From the NCBI GenBank assembly GCA_036003045.1, contig DASYSS010000099.1, positions 1-64,000 of the forward strand: a stretch of DNA of 64,000 nt, written 5' to 3'. The notes beneath the pieces were generated by a model. That model made no database searches. It was given only the letters and a program-made list of their open reading frames with translations, and was not told where the DNA came from. The DNA is from Gemmatimonadaceae bacterium. GTDB taxonomy: Bacteria; Gemmatimonadota; Gemmatimonadetes; Gemmatimonadales; Gemmatimonadaceae. Below, piece after piece: positions 21,313-31,268 of the stretch (positions within the stretch are counted from its first letter, which is position 1; each line of letters starts with the position of its first letter). The position numbers were made by a program, and so were the translations under genes.

Positions 21313-23480
21313 CGGCCGCGAGCGCGACGCTCCGAGAGCTGATGCCGGGTTGGCGCGAGGACCAGCTGCCACTCCACGACAAGCTCGATCGCGACCTGCT
21401 CGTCCGCGCATACCGATTCAGCGAAGAGGCGCACCGCGGCCAGCGGCGCAACTCGGGCGAGCCGTACATCACGCACTCGGTCGAGGTCGCGAAGATCCTC
21501 GCCGAGCTGCAGCTGGATTCGGTGACGGTCGCCGCCGGTTTGCTGCACGACGTCGTCGAAGACACGAAGCTCACGATCGCCGACGTCCAGAAGGAATTCG
21601 GCCGGCCGATCGCCGAGATCGTCGACGGTCTCACGAAGATCGCCAAGCTGCCGACGGGCGGATCGACGCAGGAACGTCAGGTCGAGAGCTACCGGAAGCT
21701 GCTGCTCTCGATCGCCAAGGACGCGCGCGTCATCATCGTGAAGCTCGCCGACCGGCTGCACAACATGCGGACGCTCGAGTATCTCCCGCCGGAGAAGCGC
21801 GTGCGCATCGCGCAGGAGACGCGCGACCTGTACGCGCCGCTCGCCCACCGCTTCGGTATGGCGAAGCTCCGCTGGGAGCTCGAGGATCTCGCCTTCAAGC
21901 ACATCGAGACCGATGAGTACAAGGCGCTCGCGAAGAAGGTCGCGCAGAAGCGCGGCGAGCGCGAAGCGCTGATCAAGCAGATGGCCGACCCGCTCATCGC
22001 CCGCCTCACGCAATCGGGCATCAAGGACGTCGAGGTCACCGGACGGCCGAAGCACCTCTGGTCGATCTACAAAAAGATGAAGCAGCGCGAGAAGCCGTAC
22101 GAGGAGATCTACGATCTCCTGGCGATCCGCTTGCTGGTGAATTCCGTGCCCGACTGCTACCACGCGCTCGGCGTGATCCACGACGGGTGGACGCCGGTGC
22201 AGGAGCGCATCAAGGACTACATCGCGCAGCCGAAGTCGAACGGCTACCAGTCGCTGCACACGACGGTGTTCGGACCCGGAAAGCAGCTTTACGAAGTGCA
22301 GATCCGAACGCGCGACATGCACCGCACGGCGGATTACGGCATCGCGGCGCACTGGCGCTACAAGGAGGACGCGAAGAGCGACGAGCTCGATCGGCATCTC
22401 TCCTGGTTCCGGCAGGTGCTCGAGCTGCAGATGGACGCCAAGACGCCGGACGAGTTTCTCGAGTTCCTGAAGCTGGACCTTTACCAGGACGAGATTTTCG
22501 TCTTCACGCCGACCGGCGACGTCATCCAGCTTCCGAAGGGCGCGACCCCGCTCGACTTCGCGTTCGCCGTGCACACCGAGATCGGTCTCCACTGCGCGGG
22601 CGCCAAGGTCAATGGTCGCATCGCGCCGCTGTCCCGGCCGCTCCGCAACTCGGAAACGGTCGAGATCATCACGTCCAACACCGCGCGTCCGACGCGCGAC
22701 TGGCTCGCGCACGTTCGGACGGGGCGCGCGCGCCACAAGATCCGCCAGGTCCTCAAGCGCGAAGCGCAGTCGTCGGCCGAGAAGCTCGGCCAGGACATGC
22801 TCGATCGAGAGATCAAGCGCCGCCGCCTCGCGCGCTTGGACGACGACCAAATGCTCGTCGCCGCCAAGGCGCTCGGCTTGACCGACGCGACGCACTTGCT
22901 GGCGTCGATCGGGCAGGGCGACGTCAACGTCACGCTGGCCCTCAAGCATCTGTATCCCGACGCGCACGAGGTCGAGCCGCCCAAGCAGAGCGTCTTCGAG
23001 CGGTTCGTGGACCGGGTGCGCGGCTCGAAGGGCGTACGCATTCAGGGCCAGGACGGCCTCATGGTGCGCTACGCACAGTGCTGCCAGCCCGTCCCCGGCG
23101 ATCTGGTCGTCGGCTACGTGACTCGCGGTCGCGGAGTGAGCATCCATCGGGCGGACTGTCCCAACCTGTTGATCCTCGCCCATGAGCCCGAGCGACGTCT
23201 CGAGATCGATTGGCAGGAGGCGCAGGGTGAGCGCTTCGGGATTCGCTTGGCGCTCGAGGGGAACGATCGCCGCGGGCTCTACGCCGACATCGCCGCCGCC
23301 GTGAGCTCCACGGGCACCGACATCAAGAGCATGGACCTGCGCAGCACCGACGGCCGCCTGACCGGATCGCTCCTGGTCGAGGTCGAGAACCTCGCCCATC
23401 TCGAGAAGATCATCCGTGCGGCGCGCCGGGTGAAAGGCGTCACCGAGGTCGCCCGCCGCGAGCGAGTGGTCGCCGAGTAG
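21309..23480 (+). CDS. rel: Bifunctional (p)ppGpp synthetase/hydrolase
   Basis: 723 residues from GTG 21309, overlapping the radC stop. The N-terminal HD hydrolase domain is intact (His56; LLHDVVED with His80-Asp81 and Glu84-Asp85), so ppGpp hydrolysis is expected. The synthetase domain follows (EEIYDLLAIRLLV, then QPKSNGYQSLHTTVFGP), then TGS (IFVFTPTGDVIQLPKGATPL), a zinc-finger-like CCQPVPGD segment and a C-terminal ACT domain (GLYADIAAAVSSTGTDIKSM). It looks like the Rel type that both makes and degrades the alarmone. No second rel/spoT gene is present in the window. Confidence 0.95.
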   Translation: MTAASATLRELMPGWREDQLPLHDKLDRDLLVRAYRFSEEAHRGQRRNSGEPYITHSVEVAKILAELQLDSVTVAAGLLHDVVEDTKLTIADVQKEFGRPIAEIVDGLTKIAKLPTGGSTQERQVESYRKLLLSIAKDARVIIVKLADRLHNMRTLEYLPPEKRVRIAQETRDLYAPLAHRFGMAKLRWELEDLAFKHIETDEYKALAKKVAQKRGEREALIKQMADPLIARLTQSGIKDVEVTGRPKHLWSIYKKMKQREKPYEEIYDLLAIRLLVNSVPDCYHALGVIHDGWTPVQERIKDYIAQPKSNGYQSLHTTVFGPGKQLYEVQIRTRDMHRTADYGIAAHWRYKEDAKSDELDRHLSWFRQVLELQMDAKTPDEFLEFLKLDLYQDEIFVFTPTGDVIQLPKGATPLDFAFAVHTEIGLHCAGAKVNGRIAPLSRPLRNSETVEIITSNTARPTRDWLAHVRTGRARHKIRQVLKREAQSSAEKLGQDMLDREIKRRRLARLDDDQMLVAAKALGLTDATHLLASIGQGDVNVTLALKHLYPDAHEVEPPKQSVFERFVDRVRGSKGVRIQGQDGLMVRYAQCCQPVPGDLVVGYVTRGRGVSIHRADCPNLLILAHEPERRLEIDWQEAQGERFGIRLALEGNDRRGLYADIAAAVSSTGTDIKSMDLRSTDGRLTGSLLVEVENLAHLEKIIRAARRVKGVTEVARRERVVAE

Positions 23481-23571
23481 CCGTAGAGCGGGGTCTGATA
23501 CGGGAAACGCCGGATCGTCGTCCTACAGAGAGCACCGGACTTCATCCGCCCTCTCCGACCGCCTGCATCCA

Positions 23572-24387
23572 GTGACCGCCGCGCCCTTTCTCTGTGAGCA
23601 CACGCTCGATCGCGCCACGCGCCGGGCGTTTCGTCTCGTCTGTCCCGCATGCCAGTCGTATTGGGATCTCGATTCGCGGGATCAGGTGGTGCCGTACGAC
23701 GAGAGCTATCCGACGCAGCGAGGCCACTACGATCCTCGCATCGGCGCGCTCAAGGTGCGCACCCTGAGGCATTGGCTGCGCAAGGGCGACGTTGATTTTG
23801 CCGGCAAACGGGTGTGCGAGGTCGGGTTCGGCGGCGGCTCCTGCCTGCCGCTGCTCGCCGAAACGGCTCGCGGCGTCGTCGCGCTGGAAGCGAACGATTC
23901 GGCGATCGAGCACGCGAAGGCCGCGGGCCACAAGGCGGAGTATCTGCTCGTTCAGCGGCTTCCGCCTCGTCTCTCGGCGCCGGTCGATCTGTGGATCTTC
24001 CAGGACAGCTTCGAGCACATTCCGGATCCCGCCGCCTTCGTCGCGTGGATGTGCGAGAACAGTTCGGCGCGAGCGGAAATCCTGCTCGTGGCGCCCCGCG
24101 CCGATTCACTCTCCCAGCGGCTGCTCGGACGTCTCTGGCCCCACAAGCTGCCCGATCACCAGTTCCAGTGGTCGCGCGCCGGCGTCGTGCAGTTCATGGA
24201 GCGCCGTGGCTTCACGCTGCGGAATGAGTTCTTTCCGCTCAAGTTCGCGTCGCCGCAGATGGTGGTCGCGCACTTCCTGCACAAAGCGGGTGCGCCGCCG
24301 AGCGTGAAGAAATGGCTAGGGGGTGCCGCGCTCGCCGTGCCCATCAACTTTGGCGAGATGGGCCTCGTCTTTCGCCGCAGCGCCTGA
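23572..24387 (+). CDS. SAM-dependent methyltransferase (class I), substrate unknown
   Basis: 271 residues from a GTG start. Motif I is VCEVGFGGGSCLPLL (from residue 81), followed by an acidic VALEAND at the end of strand 2 and the DLWIFQDSFEHIPDP segment typical of class I methyltransferases of the Methyltransf_11/23 kind. The N-terminus has a lone CPAC pair. It converges with a minus-strand glycosyltransferase-like gene and their 3' ends overlap by 72 bases. The context suggests it modifies a glycan or lipid of the envelope, but nothing in the sequence fixes the substrate. Confidence 0.8.
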   Translation: MTAAPFLCEHTLDRATRRAFRLVCPACQSYWDLDSRDQVVPYDESYPTQRGHYDPRIGALKVRTLRHWLRKGDVDFAGKRVCEVGFGGGSCLPLLAETARGVVALEANDSAIEHAKAAGHKAEYLLVQRLPPRLSAPVDLWIFQDSFEHIPDPAAFVAWMCENSSARAEILLVAPRADSLSQRLLGRLWPHKLPDHQFQWSRAGVVQFMERRGFTLRNEFFPLKFASPQMVVAHFLHKAGAPPSVKKWLGGAALAVPINFGEMGLVFRRSA

Positions 24388-26121
24388 CGGGTTCGCGGAT
24401 CCGGTCGCGTTGCCCGTGACCGGATCCAGACGCCACAGCGTGTAGAACGGCGTCTCGTACAACTTCCGGCCGCGAGCGGCGACGGCCGCGGTGAGCTGCG
24501 CATCCCGCTCGTTGACCAGCGAGTCGATCAACGGCCGATAGGGAGCCGGGTTCGCCCAGAGCTGCCAGAGTCGGTATCGGGCAATCACGTAGTAATAGCC
24601 CTTGTCGAACATCTCGTCGGCGAGGTGTTTGTGCTGGACGAATATCGCGCCGCGCGCGGTCGCCGATGGCGCGCGTCCGGGCTCCGCGTAGTACGCCAGG
24701 GCGCTCGACATGCGACTCGGCGGCGTGGCGATCAACGCGATCGTGAACCGGTTGAAGTAGTACCGGTACGCTCCGTCGAAGACGTGATTCACCAGGATGT
24801 GCTGGCCCGGCGCGCTGACGGAATCCAGTTCGGTTTTCAGTGACGCGATGGCGCTGGGCTCGAAGAACGCTTTCTTGAACGTGACGTCCTCGTCGAGCGA
24901 GTTGGCCATGAGTGCCACGAAGAGCCCGACACCGACGATGGCGAGCGCCCGAGCGCGCGCTCCGACCAGCACGACGACCAGCGCTCCGCAGGCGATCGAG
25001 TAGAAGGGAATCAGCAGCAGCGTGGGATAGACCTGCTCCACCCACAGCTCGGTGAACAGGCAGAGGAAGGGAAGCGTCGCCGCGAGAATGACGAGCGGAT
25101 TCGCCGACGGCAGGGCGACCTTCAACGTGTGCTCGACTCGCCGGCGCCAGAGCGCCGCGACGAGCCATGCGGCCGTCACGACGAGAAACAGGATCGAGAA
25201 ATAGCGCTCGATCCGGCCGAACGCCGTCGGCGCGATGCCGCTCTCGTAGGCCGTCTTGACGGCGTCGTTCGTCGAACGCTCGGTCACCTGATAGCGCAGG
25301 TCGGCCAGCCAGCCGTGAATCCCGCCGAGTGCCCACGCGTTGGTGCCCCACTTGAACAGAATTGCCGCGACGGCGCACAACCCGAGCGTCGCCAGCAACC
25401 GCAGGCCGGCGAGGTTCACCCCGCGATGGTGCGCGATGGTGACGGCGGCGAGAAGCAACGGCACCAGAAACCAGAAATCGTACGACGACAGAAAGGCGAG
25501 AAAGAGAAACACGCCCGCCAACACCGCGTACCGGGTCGGGCGTCCTTTCGCGCGAAGGTGACGCGTCAGGAAATACACGCAGCCGGCGCCGAAGAAGAAC
25601 GCCAACGGCGCATGGTGCAGGTAGTCGGCGTGCTGGATCCACAGAGGGTTCACCACCCAGAGCGCCAGCGCGCACTCCGCCGTCGGCTTCGACCAGTAGC
25701 CTGCGACGAGCGCGTACACGAAGAACAACGCGCCGAATGAGAAGCACAGCGCCACGAGCCGAAACTGCGCCAGCTCCGACATCCCGAAGACGGTTCGCTC
25801 GACGCCGTTCACCAGATCGGGGAGCTGGGGGTAGTGCGTGTAGATGAGCACCCGATCCGCCGGCGTCATCGATGCCGCGTCGAGCAGGTGCGGCGTGAGA
25901 TGCAGTTTCAGAAATCCGTACCGCTGGAAATTCCGCCCGGCCGTCATGACGTTGTAGTCCGATCCGGGGTCCCCCCAATTCAAGCGCGGCGGATCGAACG
26001 CGTGAATCGCGCAGTACACGAACACCGCCGCCGCGCAAACCACGCCCAAGTGCTCACGCAGCCAGGCGAAGCTCTGTCGCCGCGGCGAATTCCTGGCCGG
26101 CGTTGTCGCCTCGGAAGTCAC
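24316..26121 (-). CDS. GT-C-like multispanning membrane protein, paralogue of the domain fused to GT9
   Basis: 601 residues from GTG 26121, which overlaps the upstream stop (GTGA). About 10-12 hydrophobic segments alternate with short loops. The first large loop contains RLNWGDPGSDYNVMTAGRNF with acidic residues near the first membrane segment, as in GT-C glycosyltransferases of the PMT/ArnT kind. Other marked segments are YTHYPQLPDLVNGVERTVFG and NPLWIQHADYLHHAP. It is strongly similar throughout to the C-terminal half of the preceding gene, so the two arose by tandem duplication. A lipid-linked sugar transferase acting outside the inner membrane is the best guess; donor and acceptor are unknown. 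Confidence 0.75.
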   Translation of the reverse strand: MTSEATTPARNSPRRQSFAWLREHLGVVCAAAVFVYCAIHAFDPPRLNWGDPGSDYNVMTAGRNFQRYGFLKLHLTPHLLDAASMTPADRVLIYTHYPQLPDLVNGVERTVFGMSELAQFRLVALCFSFGALFFVYALVAGYWSKPTAECALALWVVNPLWIQHADYLHHAPLAFFFGAGCVYFLTRHLRAKGRPTRYAVLAGVFLFLAFLSSYDFWFLVPLLLAAVTIAHHRGVNLAGLRLLATLGLCAVAAILFKWGTNAWALGGIHGWLADLRYQVTERSTNDAVKTAYESGIAPTAFGRIERYFSILFLVVTAAWLVAALWRRRVEHTLKVALPSANPLVILAATLPFLCLFTELWVEQVYPTLLLIPFYSIACGALVVVLVGARARALAIVGVGLFVALMANSLDEDVTFKKAFFEPSAIASLKTELDSVSAPGQHILVNHVFDGAYRYYFNRFTIALIATPPSRMSSALAYYAEPGRAPSATARGAIFVQHKHLADEMFDKGYYYVIARYRLWQLWANPAPYRPLIDSLVNERDAQLTAAVAARGRKLYETPFYTLWRLDPVTGNATGSANPSGAAAKDEAHLAKVDGHGERGTP

Positions 26122-29051
26122 CGATTGCGGCGCACGTCGCCGTCGGAAGTGGCCTTCGCGCCTGGAGGAGGTACCGGGCCGTCGGCGATGTTCGTCGAAG
26201 GCCGCGGCATGATGCGCCAGACGACGTACGAGTCGGTCTCCTGAATCTTCTGCCCGCCCATCGCCGCGACGTCCGCGACCAACTCCGAGTCGCGGGCCGT
26301 GATGAAGCGATCGATTTCGGCGTGGTATTGATCGGGATGACCCCACGGAACCCACAGTCCCTCACGGCCGAGCACATAGTACAAGCCCTTGTCGAACAGT
26401 TGGTCCGCAAGATGCTTGTGCTGTACGAAGATCGCTCCGCTCGGCGGCGCCACGACCGGGCGCTTCGGATCTGCGTAATAGCGGAGCGCGCCCGCGTAGT
26501 GCCAGGGCGGATTCAGAATCAGCGCGACGGTGTTGTGATTGAAGTAGTACCGATAGGCCGCGTCGAAGACGTGGTCGACGAGAATGCGCTGTCCCGGCTC
26601 AGTGACCGCGTCGATCTCTTTCTTCAACGCCGCGATCTCGCTGCGAGGCAGAAAGGCCTTCTTGAACTTCGCGTTCTCGACGATCGAGTTCGCGGCTAGG
26701 GCGGCCACGAGCACGAACCCAACCGGATGCCAAACCCGTTGGCGTGCGCCGATGAGCATGATCGCAAGTACCGCGCAACCGATCGCATAGAACGGCAGCA
26801 CGAGCAGCGTTGGGTAGTACTGGCCGACCCACAGCTCGGTGAACAGCGCTAGGAAGGGCAGCGCCGCGAGGAGGATGAACACCGGATTGATCGTCGCGCG
26901 TTCGCCGTCGCCTGGCAGAGCGACGCGGCGGCGAACCGCCGGGTATAGCGCCCAGAACGCGGCGACCGGGAAGAGGAGCAACGTGAACGACCGCTCGACA
27001 CGCCCGACGAGTGTCGTGGCGATGCCTTCGTCGTAAGCGACGCGCACGGCCTGGTTCGTCGCGCGCTCGACCATCTGGAAGCGGAGGTCGCGAACGAACG
27101 CCGCGACGCCGCCGAGTGCCCAGGCGTTCGTCGCCCACTTCGCGAGCAGGGCCGCCACCGCGCATCCGGCGAGCGCGCCGAGCACGCGCACCGCCGGCAC
27201 GCTGACTTTCCGATAATGCCCGAACGTCATCATCGCCAACAACAGCGGCACGAAGATCCAGAAGTCGTACGACGCCATGAACACGAGGAACACGAACGCG
27301 CCCGACGCAAAGAGGAAGCCGAGCCGCCGCTCGTTCAGATGGCGGAACAGGAAGTACAGCGCGCCGAAGCCGAAGAAGGCCGCGTATGGCGCGTGGTGCA
27401 GGTAGTCGGCGTGCTGGATCCACAGCGGGTTGATGACCCACAGCGCGAGCGACAGCTGTGCGGCCTGTCGCGACCAGTAGAAGCCGACCAGCCGGTAGAC
27501 GAAGAAGAGCGCGCTGAACGAGAAGATGAGCGCGACGAGTCGGAACTGGACGAGATCCGTGAACCCGAACACCGTGCGTTCCAATCCGTTCATCAAGTCC
27601 GGCAACTGCGGATAGTGCGTGTAGACCATCGCTGAATCGGCGTTGGTCATGTACGCGGGATCGAGCACGAACGGCGTGAGTCGAAGGTGCAGGAATCCGT
27701 ACTTCGCGAAGTTCCGCCCCGACGTCATCACGTTGTAGTCGGACGCCGAGTCGCCCCAGTTGAGCCGCGGCGGATCGAACGCGTGAACGAGGCAGTAAAC
27801 CAGCACGAAGGCGACGCAGATGAAACCGAGGTTCTGCCACGCCGCGGTCAGGACTTTCTTCGGGAGCGCGGGGTACGTCGTGCGCTGAGGAGGGTACTCC
27901 ATCGGAGTCCAGTTGGATGGTGAGACGGCGGCATCCTCGAACAGCCCCTTGATGCACCGATTGTCGCCTCGGCACGGCGGCGACTCGCTCGTGTGGACGC
28001 AGGGCGAGCACGCGATCTTGCGGTAGTACTGTCGCTCCTCGACATCCGTCCACGCCTCGCGCGTCAGCGTCGACGGGTCGGTCGGTCCCCAGTAGGACAC
28101 ACAGTGCAGTCCGGCCGTGCGCGCCAGATGCAGTAGACTGGAATCGATTCCCCAGAATTCGGCCGATTCGAACAGCGCCTCGACCGATTGTTTGATCGAG
28201 AGGTCGCCGCACGCGTTGCGGAACGTCAGCGCCGGATACGCGTCACGCAGCGCATCGATGATCGCGTCGCCCTTCGCGCGATCACTCGGCGCGCCGAGAA
28301 AGATGAATGTCTGGTGCTCGGGTCGAAGGTGGTCGCGGAACGCGCGCGACCACTGCTCGGGCGACAGCATGCGTTCGAGCGCGAGGTCCGAGCAGGCGAA
28401 CCCGACCGCCACTTGTCCCGGCACCTTGGCCGTCGACGCGGATTGGCCGATCGCGCCGCCCAGCGCGCGCTCGCAGTCGGCGCGCGACGCGGGCTTCACG
28501 CCGAACAGATCGCCGATGCGGTCATAGAAGTAGAAGGATCCGGACGAGCGGTTGAAGAACACGAGGTGCGACGCCAGCCCGCGTCGCCAGAAGATGTGGT
28601 CCAGCCAAAACGCGACGCGGTTTCGCGCCATCGTGAGCGTCGTGAAGACGGTCGTCAGGCGGCTGTGCACCTCGAGGTCGACGATGCAGTCGGCGCGAAA
28701 CGTCGTGATGAGCGCAACGAGGGCGGTCCAGAGCAGCGCGAACGAGCTGCGCGTGTCGATGATCCGGTACTCGTCAAACACGCCGAGCAGTTCAGCGAAC
28801 GGCTGTACCGCCGGCGTCGTGACGAGGACCATGCGGACGTTCGGGTGCGCCTTGCGAAACCCCAGCAGCATCGGCATCGCGAGCACGAGGCTGCCGCCGC
28901 CCAGCATCTTCACCCAAACCACTTCCTGTCCGACCGTCAGCTCATGGTTGCGGCGAAGGAGGGCGCCGAGAAGCATCGTCGCCGGACGCAGCACGGCGAT
29001 CGCGGCGCCGCCGGCGTAGTTGTCGATGAGCTTTTGGGTCCGGAGGTGCAT
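26118..29051 (-). CDS. Fusion of GT9 (heptosyltransferase-type) domain and GT-C-like membrane domain
   Basis: 977 residues in one uninterrupted frame. Residues about 40-375 are a GT9 domain: VVWVKMLGGGSLVLAMPML at the start, then WGIDSSLLHLARTAGLHCV, WGPTDP and the Cys cluster CSPCV...CRGDNRC, as in LPS heptosyltransferases. From about 395 on the protein is a multispanning membrane domain with LNWGDSASDYNVMTSGRNF, YTHYPQLPDLMNGLERTVFG and IQHADYLHHAP, closely similar to the downstream gene. GT9 enzymes normally work in the cytosol on nucleotide-sugar donors, GT-C enzymes on lipid-linked donors from the outer face; joining them is unusual. Probable role: LPS core or other envelope glycan. Confidence 0.8.
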   Translation of the reverse strand: MHLRTQKLIDNYAGGAAIAVLRPATMLLGALLRRNHELTVGQEVVWVKMLGGGSLVLAMPMLLGFRKAHPNVRMVLVTTPAVQPFAELLGVFDEYRIIDTRSSFALLWTALVALITTFRADCIVDLEVHSRLTTVFTTLTMARNRVAFWLDHIFWRRGLASHLVFFNRSSGSFYFYDRIGDLFGVKPASRADCERALGGAIGQSASTAKVPGQVAVGFACSDLALERMLSPEQWSRAFRDHLRPEHQTFIFLGAPSDRAKGDAIIDALRDAYPALTFRNACGDLSIKQSVEALFESAEFWGIDSSLLHLARTAGLHCVSYWGPTDPSTLTREAWTDVEERQYYRKIACSPCVHTSESPPCRGDNRCIKGLFEDAAVSPSNWTPMEYPPQRTTYPALPKKVLTAAWQNLGFICVAFVLVYCLVHAFDPPRLNWGDSASDYNVMTSGRNFAKYGFLHLRLTPFVLDPAYMTNADSAMVYTHYPQLPDLMNGLERTVFGFTDLVQFRLVALIFSFSALFFVYRLVGFYWSRQAAQLSLALWVINPLWIQHADYLHHAPYAAFFGFGALYFLFRHLNERRLGFLFASGAFVFLVFMASYDFWIFVPLLLAMMTFGHYRKVSVPAVRVLGALAGCAVAALLAKWATNAWALGGVAAFVRDLRFQMVERATNQAVRVAYDEGIATTLVGRVERSFTLLLFPVAAFWALYPAVRRRVALPGDGERATINPVFILLAALPFLALFTELWVGQYYPTLLVLPFYAIGCAVLAIMLIGARQRVWHPVGFVLVAALAANSIVENAKFKKAFLPRSEIAALKKEIDAVTEPGQRILVDHVFDAAYRYYFNHNTVALILNPPWHYAGALRYYADPKRPVVAPPSGAIFVQHKHLADQLFDKGLYYVLGREGLWVPWGHPDQYHAEIDRFITARDSELVADVAAMGGQKIQETDSYVVWRIMPRPSTNIADGPVPPPGAKATSDGDVRRNR

Positions 29052-29105
29052 ACCCCCAGGGACTGCCTCGAGGCATTCAAGGTATCAAACGGGAGGCAGT
29101 GCCAA

Positions 29106-31268
29106 TCACTGGCCGGATTGCTGCTTGACCAGGTCCGCGAGCCACTCCTGATTGGCCCTGTTCACGGAGACCTGCCAGACCCGGATGTGTCGCACGTCGA
29201 TGGACGCCCCCGGAAGCAGCGAAAAGGTCCGAAAGGCGAGTGTCGGCGTGGCTCCCGGCGCGGCGACGAGAGGAAAACGCGCCTTGGTGGCGTACGGATC
29301 GAGTGTGACGGGGACGCGAGGCAGCCCACCCGTAATGCCGACGAGGAAACGCGGATTCGATCCGATGAGCGGGATTCGGGCGAGTGGATTTCTCGTCTGG
29401 TATTCGACCTCGACGGTCATGAGAGTTACGGGCATGCCGGGCGATGCCGGCACCGGTCCGAGCGCGGCGATTTGCGTCCCCCCGTCCACCGTTGGCTCGC
29501 CGAGCAGTTGATTCGACGGAGCTTCTCCCACTTGGCGCTCCCAAAACAGAGACCACGGAGTCCTCTGAACGATCGCGTAGCGCTTGAGCAGCTCCTCGTA
29601 AAACTCCCAGCTCGTCTGTTCCAGCCAAGTTTCGTACTGCGTGTACGAAGGGAGCACCGTCTGCACGAGCTGAGGAGACGTCGCCCGAAAGCGCTCGATG
29701 TATTGGGCGCGATTCGCCGGGCCGAGCGCGTGAATGATGTAGTCGAACGACGGGTGAAAGAGTCCGTAACGCGCCTCGAGCCACCCGGAGTAGGTGGACC
29801 ATATCGACGGGAGCTGACCGGTGGGACTCGTTCGCGAGGCGACCACCGCTTCGTCGTCGTGCATCGTCTCGGGCCAGATCCCGGCGACGCCGAACTGCGC
29901 GTGCCCCAACAAATGCTCGGTGACGACGTGCGGTGAGGATCGCAAGATTCCCAAGGCACTCGGGGTGGCAATCGCCGCCCAAACGATGGCCGCGAGCGCT
30001 GCCGCCGGCATCCAGACCGGCACCGCGGCCGGCGCATTCTCTTCCGAGCGAATCTTGGCGGAGTCTCCGGCACCGGTGAGGCCGATCAAGCCGAGTACGA
30101 TCAGAACGCGCCAACACGGTTGGACATACGCAGCCGCGAAAATTCCGAGGAGCGATGCGCAGGATACCAGACCGTAGACGGCGAACAACGCGAGCGCGTC
30201 GGCTCGCTGCTCCGAGCCCGTTCCTCGCACTCTGGCAACGCGCGTGAGACATACAGCCACGGCGACGAGGATCAGCGCGACCGCCGCTCCCACCGGCCAC
30301 ACGTGAACGAGCATCCCCGGAAGCCGGCCCCACGACGAGATGAACACGTTGGGCGGGGCGCCGAAGTACCAGTACTGGTCCATCGGCACGGCTTCGAGGT
30401 TGTAGCTCAAGACTCCGAGCGTTCCTCCACGTGCCACAAGGAGAATCAGGAGGAGAAACGTCGCGACGCCGACGGCGACCGTGCCCACCGCATCCGCGAT
30501 GCGTTCGCCACGAGTCGACGGCCGCGTCAGCGCGACGCCCGACACGACGCAAAAGGCCAGGACGATCGCGATGCCTTGCTCCGTGCTCAGAAAGAGAGCG
30601 AGTCCGAGGCACAGGCCCGTGACCAGCGTTCGCTGCGCTCCCGCGCGTGATAGATAGAACGCGACCGGGACCAGCATCGGCATCGTCGAACGGAGGCCGA
30701 GCATTCCGTTCAGCGGATTGGTGAGTGCCGTGAGGTGGAGCGCGATCGAAGCCGCGAGGGCGGCCGTGGTGAGCCACCAGGCGCGTCGCCAGCCGCCCGT
30801 GAACGCGCGAAACACCGCGAGGAACACCACGGGGTACGCGAGCGTGCTCAGTAACTGCCGCGCGAGCTCGGACCCTTCGAGCCGTCCCCCGAACAGCAAG
30901 TAGAGGGGATAGTGCAGGAAAGGGATTCCGATTCCGTGAAAGAACTGAAAATCGATTCCCGGCCTGAAGCCGGCCTGAATGCGGCGAAGCGCGTTGTAGA
31001 GCTGGAAGGGTCCGTCGATCGCCACGCCGCTGAAGTGCCGTGCGGAATCGACGGCGATGGAAAACGGGATCGCGAAGACCAGCGCGGCCAGGACCACGGG
31101 AATTGCAGTGCCCGCGATTCGTGCCAGCGCCGGCGGTTCGGCGGCCCGGGTCGGGGATGACGACGGCGACGTGGGGGCGGGGGCAGGGGCGGGGGCGGTC
31201 AACGAGGGCGGGTCAGAAGGGCTGAAAACCGAACAAATCCCGAGAATGGCGTTATATTCCCGAACCAT
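29106..31268 (-). CDS. Large multispanning membrane protein, possibly GT-C type
   Basis: About 720 residues, not recognised as a named family. After a Pro/Ala/Ser-rich N-terminus come about 11 hydrophobic segments. The first extracytoplasmic loop has [16 protein letters not shown] and [19 protein letters not shown], with acidic residues in a GT-C-like position. A soluble C-terminal part (about 480-720) follows the last membrane segment. The start is uncertain: ATG 31268 shares the CCATGG palindrome with the uvrB ATG, ATG 31280 lies inside uvrB, and an in-frame TTG at 31202 lies downstream of a TATAAC box (31256-31251). It heads the minus-strand group, 54 bases before the GT9 fusion. Confidence 0.65.
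31231..31258 (+). promoter_or_regulatory. Putative uvrB promoter, suggesting a leaderless mRNA
   Basis: TATATT (31253-31258) is a near-consensus -10 box whose downstream edge is only eight bases before the uvrB ATG (31267). GAACAA (31231-31236) is a weak -35 at 16 bases spacing. Start of transcription would fall about one or two bases before the ATG, and no Shine-Dalgarno sequence is present. On the minus strand the same AT-rich spot reads TATAAC (31256-31251) and could serve the divergent membrane-protein gene. Confidence 0.5.

Follow-up and report, generated by a model that had tools for sequence, protein, structure and literature searches.

The 64,000-nucleotide stretch of DNA analysed here (the window, G000) carried a putative glycan cluster between relA and uvrB at 23480-31057. 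The cluster was found between the same two genes in G002, G004, and G005. It comprised a ~700-aa multispanning protein, a GT9 glycosyltransferase, a GT-C glycosyltransferase (two in the window), and a convergent methyltransferase (Table 1). Direct adjacency of relA and uvrB was seen in G001 and G003, which belong to the window's genus, and in G014 of a different genus. Two species of the window's genus thus lacked the cluster at the locus, and the GT9 and GT-C genes were not found elsewhere in them, which weighs against the reading favoured below. By its placement, the cluster resembles an island that was inserted between two housekeeping genes.

The neighbours were compared among the four species with the cluster. 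The 724-aa multispanning protein showed 44-49% identity and carried the motif DGPFQLYN...GFxPGxDFQFFHG, with no Pfam match. It was considered as a further GT-C homologue and rejected, as no profile matched it. The methyltransferase was present in all four species at 60-70% identity. Its relatives adjoined the same GT9 in other phyla (L067, L068, L070, and L075; 42-49% identity), and the window has the trio of GT9, multispanning gene, and methyltransferase that also occurs elsewhere in the GT9 subfamily. The standalone GT-C paralogue differed from the fused GT-C about as much as the GT-Cs of other species did. Because of this distance, the GT-C pair of the window would be the result of an old duplication or of the import of one copy.

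Table 1. Positions of the fused gene, its parts, and its neighbours in the window
Feature	Position	Strand	Basis or remark
Fused GT9::GT-C gene, 977 aa	26118..29051	-	Uninterrupted frame; ATG 29051, TGA 26118
GT9-type GT-B domain, aa 1-370, N-terminal helix aa 3-31	27942..29051	-	Pfam, model, Foldseek
Ser54 codon, at the position of Asp13, the catalytic base in WaaC	28890..28892	-	S vs D of 3tov, profile alignment
Four-cysteine cluster C348-S-P-C351...C360...C366	27954..28010	-	Invariant in 34-member alignment
Linker, aa ~371-405	27837..27941	-	Spans site of GTGA stop/start in sister species
GT-C membrane enzyme half (predicted), aa ~406-977, with C-terminal alpha/beta domain	26121..27836	-	Model, PMT_2
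First-loop acidic motif D434-S-A-S-D438-Y-N	27732..27752	-	GT-C alignment
YTHYP motif of GT-C family	27609..27623	-	Invariant in 10-homologue alignment
Standalone GT-C paralogue, 56% identical to fused GT-C	24316..26121	-	Its GTG overlaps fusion stop (GTGA)
Multispanning protein, 724 aa	29106..31280	-	Upstream, same direction; kept in 4/4 cluster species
SAM-dependent methyltransferase	23572..24387	+	Pfam Methyltransf_23; convergent with cluster

The earlier note had described one 977-residue frame joining a GT9 domain to a multispanning domain. This was borne out on the minus strand, and WGIDSSLLHLA, WGPTDP, and CSPC were all found in the frame. Read on the plus strand, 26118-29051 contained stops. 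The note had also named a frameshift or assembly join as a danger. The sequences used come from draft assemblies, largely MAGs, which would favour such an error. However, the fusion was present in two independent assemblies with 64% identity and linkers of similar length, those of the window and of G005 (JAICWO010000014.1, a Gemmatimonadaceae MAG of the window's genus). In addition, GC by codon position was 0.58/0.45/0.82 through the junction, which was coding-like. A missed frameshift or an assembly artefact was largely ruled out by the second fused genome and this coding signal, and we leave almost no probability to it. Reading by eye, the first in-frame ATG, GTG, or TTG of the junction region appeared only inside the first membrane helix. 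Since there was no start codon near the junction before this helix, a separate full-length GT-C product from the fused gene is unlikely.

The origin of the join was visible in the sister species. At the same locus, G002 (JAQBQB010000020.1) and G004 carried separate GT9 and GT-C genes, each read in a frame of its own. The GT9 stop and the GT-C start overlapped in a shared GTGA, and in the window the linker stands in the place of this overlap. Judged from these sequences, the fusion is the removal of a stop/start between translationally coupled genes. Trees of the locus disagreed. The relA tree grouped G004 with G005 (97/98), the GT-C tree grouped the two fused copies (88/89), and in the GT9 tree the grouping of the fused copies was neither shown nor rejected (p-AU 0.24). 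The fusion might have arisen once or twice. A search for the same architecture gave G005 as one further fusion and no third. All of the more than 40 other GT9 subfamily members in this limited sampling had frames of ordinary size. Likewise, no fusion appeared in the frames inspected when two other subfamily members were taken as the centre of profile searches, which covered 376 and 375 genomes.

We examined the GT9 half by profile and by model. Pfam Glyco_transf_9 (PF01075) matched aa 246-355 with 27.2 bits, compared to a cut-off of 22. The NCBIfam heptosyltransferase equivalogs fell far short, with 16.3 bits against a cut-off of 134.6. The AlphaFold2 model, built on 41 sequences, had a pLDDT of mostly 85-98 at aa 1-340 and fell toward aa 370; the model of the whole fusion was poor beyond aa ~370. 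The modelled first half had its helix at 3-31 followed by a Rossmann fold, with no N-terminal beta-barrel. Foldseek matched it with 3tov, 1psw (WaaF), and 2gt1/2h1h (WaaC), with a TM-score by target of 0.63-0.68. At the level of the model, these matches confirmed a WaaC/WaaF-like GT-B fold. The fold was also matched by chains of chloroplast NDH-PSI supercomplexes (9grx_1, 7wff_a, and 7f9o_6), in which a GT-B fold may possibly serve as a scaffold without glycosyl transfer.

The catalytic positions gave a different result from the fold. Ser54 occupied the place of the WaaC catalytic base Asp13 and was invariant in 34 of 34 aligned subfamily members. Arg227, aligned by eye with WaaC Lys192 on the 3tov alignment, was also invariant (34/34). 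D303 in the IDS motif corresponded to WaaC D261 and was kept in the subfamily alignment. K48, G51, G53, E127, S130, R143-N144-R145, H308, and WGPT were also invariant among the 34 members. The invariance of WGPTDP and CSPC was partly built in because they had served as search patterns, which was not the case for S54 and R227. In WaaC, the D13A, D261A, and K192A mutations lower activity 4688-fold, 2027-fold, and 926-fold, and all heptosyltransferases compared are said to have Asp13 (PMC5713226). The cytosolic-type GT9 domain described in the earlier note was borne out. Its heptosyltransferase-type label is doubtful, because the subfamily as a whole has other residues in place of the WaaC base and of a second catalytic residue.

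The GT-C half was modelled alone with low confidence (mean pLDDT 58.8, pTM 0.56). Its core was also bounded as aa ~406-950. Pfam PMT_2 (PF13231) matched aa 493-633 with 25.4 bits, just below the gathering cut-off of 26.1. In Foldseek, ranks 1-12 were all GT-C enzymes or complexes (oligosaccharyltransferase STT3, ALG12, ALG9, AftA, and ArnT). VIA-align with ArnT gave Z 11.9 and an rmsd of 6.0 over 360 residues, C-terminal domain included, and the model also matched OST, ALG12, PMT, and AftA. These comparisons of the model speak for a GT-C fold in this half. The acidic first loop that the earlier note had read as GT-C-type was present, with D434 and D438. In 10 GT-C homologues from four phyla, D44 (aa 434), S47, and N50 were invariant, and alignment position 48 was D or E in 10/10. 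LH, S204, and W351 were likewise invariant. Within the phylum, this GT-C family was found only in the window's genus among the 298 genomes searched (E <= 1e-5).

A single-protein scan of genome contigs gave no match, and the loci came from a profile of the GT9 domain, which gave 33 loci in named genomes. The subfamily was spread over at least ten phyla, and its members came from Gemmatimonadota, Nitrospirota, Planctomycetota, Omnitrophota, Thermodesulfobacteriota, Myxococcota, Pseudomonadota, Verrucomicrobiota, Acidobacteriota, Bacteroidota, and Bdellovibrionota. At most loci a multispanning gene adjoined the GT9, often with a stop/start overlap and sometimes with a methyltransferase too. A same-strand multispanning gene within 1.5 kb was found for 27 of 32 subfamily GT9 genes compared to 0 of 25 canonical ones, with slightly unequal flanks; with shorter, corrected flanks the counts were 22/32 and 0/25. 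In both counts the rows are interrelated and the canonical control comes from one phylum. Overlaps or near-contacts between the two genes included ATGA in L078, L083, and L090, and TGATG in L084 and L094. By these sequences, the fusion unites two genes that elsewhere form a widespread side-by-side, often overlapping pair.

Three types of membrane partner recurred. Homologues of the fused GT-C were found in Nitrospirota, Geobacteraceae, and Halobacteriovoraceae (HMM E 1e-13 to 7e-5). PMT_2-type GT-Cs were found in Acidobacteriota, Bacteroidota, and G057. In Alphaproteobacteria the partners were LPG_synthase_TM (PF03706) proteins, some of which were accompanied by a multispanning protein of ~1000 aa. 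The partner type tracked the GT9 tree, with 4 changes compared to 11.1 in shuffles. In the Alphaproteobacterial loci L071, L073, L076, L081, L085, L087, L088, and L089, the GT9 lay beside LPG_synthase_TM or a similar multispanning protein, and the ~1000-aa protein preceded in four of them. Two further loci were observed. In L090 6001-7207 (Geobacter sp. OR-1), an apparent frameshift, either real or a sequencing error, divided the GT9 gene between two frames. In L094 (IMGVR_UViG_3300014202_001517), a GT9/GT-C pair was located on a viral-collection contig with Bacteroidota-like neighbours; the contig is probably bacterial.

The two halves were compared with known systems. The GT9 half shares with WaaC and WaaF (HepI and HepII) the GT-B fold, the Pfam GT9 domain, the (I/V)D[ST] motif of D261, and a WGPTDP-like loop. 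It differs in the Ser and Arg at the D13 and K192 positions of every subfamily member, the N-terminal helix, the four-cysteine cluster, and the fusion or pairing with a GT-C. As in the GT9 half, the bacterial autotransporter heptosyltransferases TibC and AAH combine a GT-B fold with a CxxC...C...C cluster toward the end of the chain. TibC binds Fe3+ at C339, C342, C358, and C370 (PMC4358343). However, the cysteine spacing is x2-x15-x11 in TibC and x2-x8-x5 here. TibC also has an N-terminal beta-barrel in place of the helix and keeps the base (Asp110) where the GT9 half has Ser. The four-cysteine cluster of the GT9 half is possibly a metal site.

PimE, ALG6, ArnT, and similar GT-CA enzymes bind lipid-linked sugar donors and use an Asp atop the first juxtamembrane helix (PMC12041525). 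The fused GT-C resembles ArnT, PMTs, PimE, ALG9/ALG12, and AftA in a near-full-length model alignment and the acidic first loop. It differs from these lipid-donor enzymes in its ~12% identity, the YTHYP and SYD motifs, and the fusion to a GT-B domain. Outside the window's genus, the YTHYP/SYD family was remote and stood beside GT9 genes of other phyla. A similar fusion exists in mycobacterial Ppm1, where a membrane Lnt domain is fused to a cytosolic polyprenol-phosphate-mannose synthase and the two are separate neighbouring genes in some species. However, Ppm1 joins GT2 and Lnt, not GT9 and GT-C. The claim of the earlier note that no enzyme with this pair had been described agreed with the searchable papers, which gave no GT9/GT-C fusion and mostly lie outside subscription journals. 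We know of no enzyme that combines the two domains. Both are of known kinds; their combination is new.

Our preferred reading, plausible if a little short of probable, is that two translationally coupled genes of a conserved membrane glycosylation module have fused naturally and would act as a relay between the inner and outer faces. Of this, the results show the domain architecture, the folds, the coupled split forms, and the conserved pairing. At the cytosolic face, the GT9 domain would load a lipid-phosphate carrier with a sugar taken from a nucleotide donor. With a phosphate as nucleophile, a catalytic base may be unnecessary, which would fit the invariant loss of Asp13, and the GT9 is favoured as a maker of a polyprenyl-phosphate sugar because the missing base would be tolerable with a phosphate acceptor. 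Against this reading, GT9 enzymes are not known to make polyprenyl-phosphate sugars, and an inactive GT9 domain would explain the missing base just as well. The lipid-linked sugar would then be flipped across the membrane, and the GT-C domain at the periplasmic face would use it on a lipid-linked glycan or protein. The target is probably methylated, given the adjacent methyltransferase. A cytosolic GT9 with a periplasmic GT-C active site would be compatible with the GT-C fold, whose cytosolic N terminus would let a linker of ~35 residues join both domains. The fusion may hold the two enzymes together at 1:1, which does not require it to move the sugar itself. The hand-over of a glycan across the membrane that the earlier note had suggested would be reasonable; its donor, acceptor, and channeling are inferred, and the co-occurrence of GT9 and GT-C is no proof of direct transfer from domain to domain. 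That a single polypeptide holds both halves of the relay, with a so far unrecognised, base-independent GT9 branch making the polyprenyl-phosphate sugar inside and the attached GT-C consuming it outside, is possible but unlikely.

Other readings share part of this evidence. Where the activity of a GT9 enzyme is known, the sugar goes to a sugar hydroxyl on a lipid-anchored acceptor. This fits a model in which the GT9 adds a sugar to a growing acceptor in the cytosol, for example an undecaprenyl-diphosphate-linked glycan, and the GT-C adds the next after flipping. The GT-C donor would be made by another enzyme, and the fusion would couple two steps on one acceptor. The Alphaproteobacterial GT9 beside LPG_synthase_TM and the ~1000-aa multispanning protein also resembles an assembly pathway. 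However, transfer to a hydroxyl normally depends on the catalytic base, which this GT9 lacks, and the D13A mutation in WaaC lowers activity 4688-fold (PMC5713226). This objection holds unless H36, E127, or H/Y129 substitutes, and we regard two successive additions as somewhat unlikely, though worth keeping in view.

The replacement of two of the three WaaC catalytic positions (D13 by S, K192 by R) would also suit a catalytically dead GT9 domain that acts as a scaffold or regulator of the GT-C. The GT-B-fold chains of the NDH-PSI supercomplexes (9grx, 7wff, and 7f9o) found by Foldseek are in line with this. Against it, D303 and a dense set of residues are invariant over at least ten phyla, beyond the needs of a scaffold, and such a role is decidedly unlikely. 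Loss of the same two residues, with the NCBIfam equivalogs far under their cut-off, weighs against the GT9 domain being an ordinary ADP-heptose:LPS core heptosyltransferase with an attached GT-C that modifies LPS, despite a Pfam GT9 score above cut-off and the WaaC/WaaF fold. The genome has an HldE-kinase-like gene (338.8 bits against a 345-bit cut-off). However, no ADP-heptose epimerase HldD scored over the cut-off in five genomes, an enzyme that users of D,D-heptose would not need. We consider an ordinary core heptosyltransferase very improbable.

Cytosolic-face GT-B and periplasmic-face GT-C enzymes are usually separate. The fusion of genes that are paired across phyla is 'Rosetta stone' evidence for their joint action. 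Together with the adjacency of the same pair in many phyla, it suggests that the paired GT9 and GT-C genes work as one relay. The fusion also offers a single purifiable polypeptide for testing coupling across the membrane. It draws attention to a GT9 subfamily without the catalytic base, probably mislabelled as heptosyltransferase, and the uncharacterised GT9/GT-C pair behind the fusion is a more interesting result than the fusion itself. If the relay on one polypeptide is true, the widespread unfused GT9/GT-C pairs would supply lipid-linked sugar donors by a route that has not been described before.
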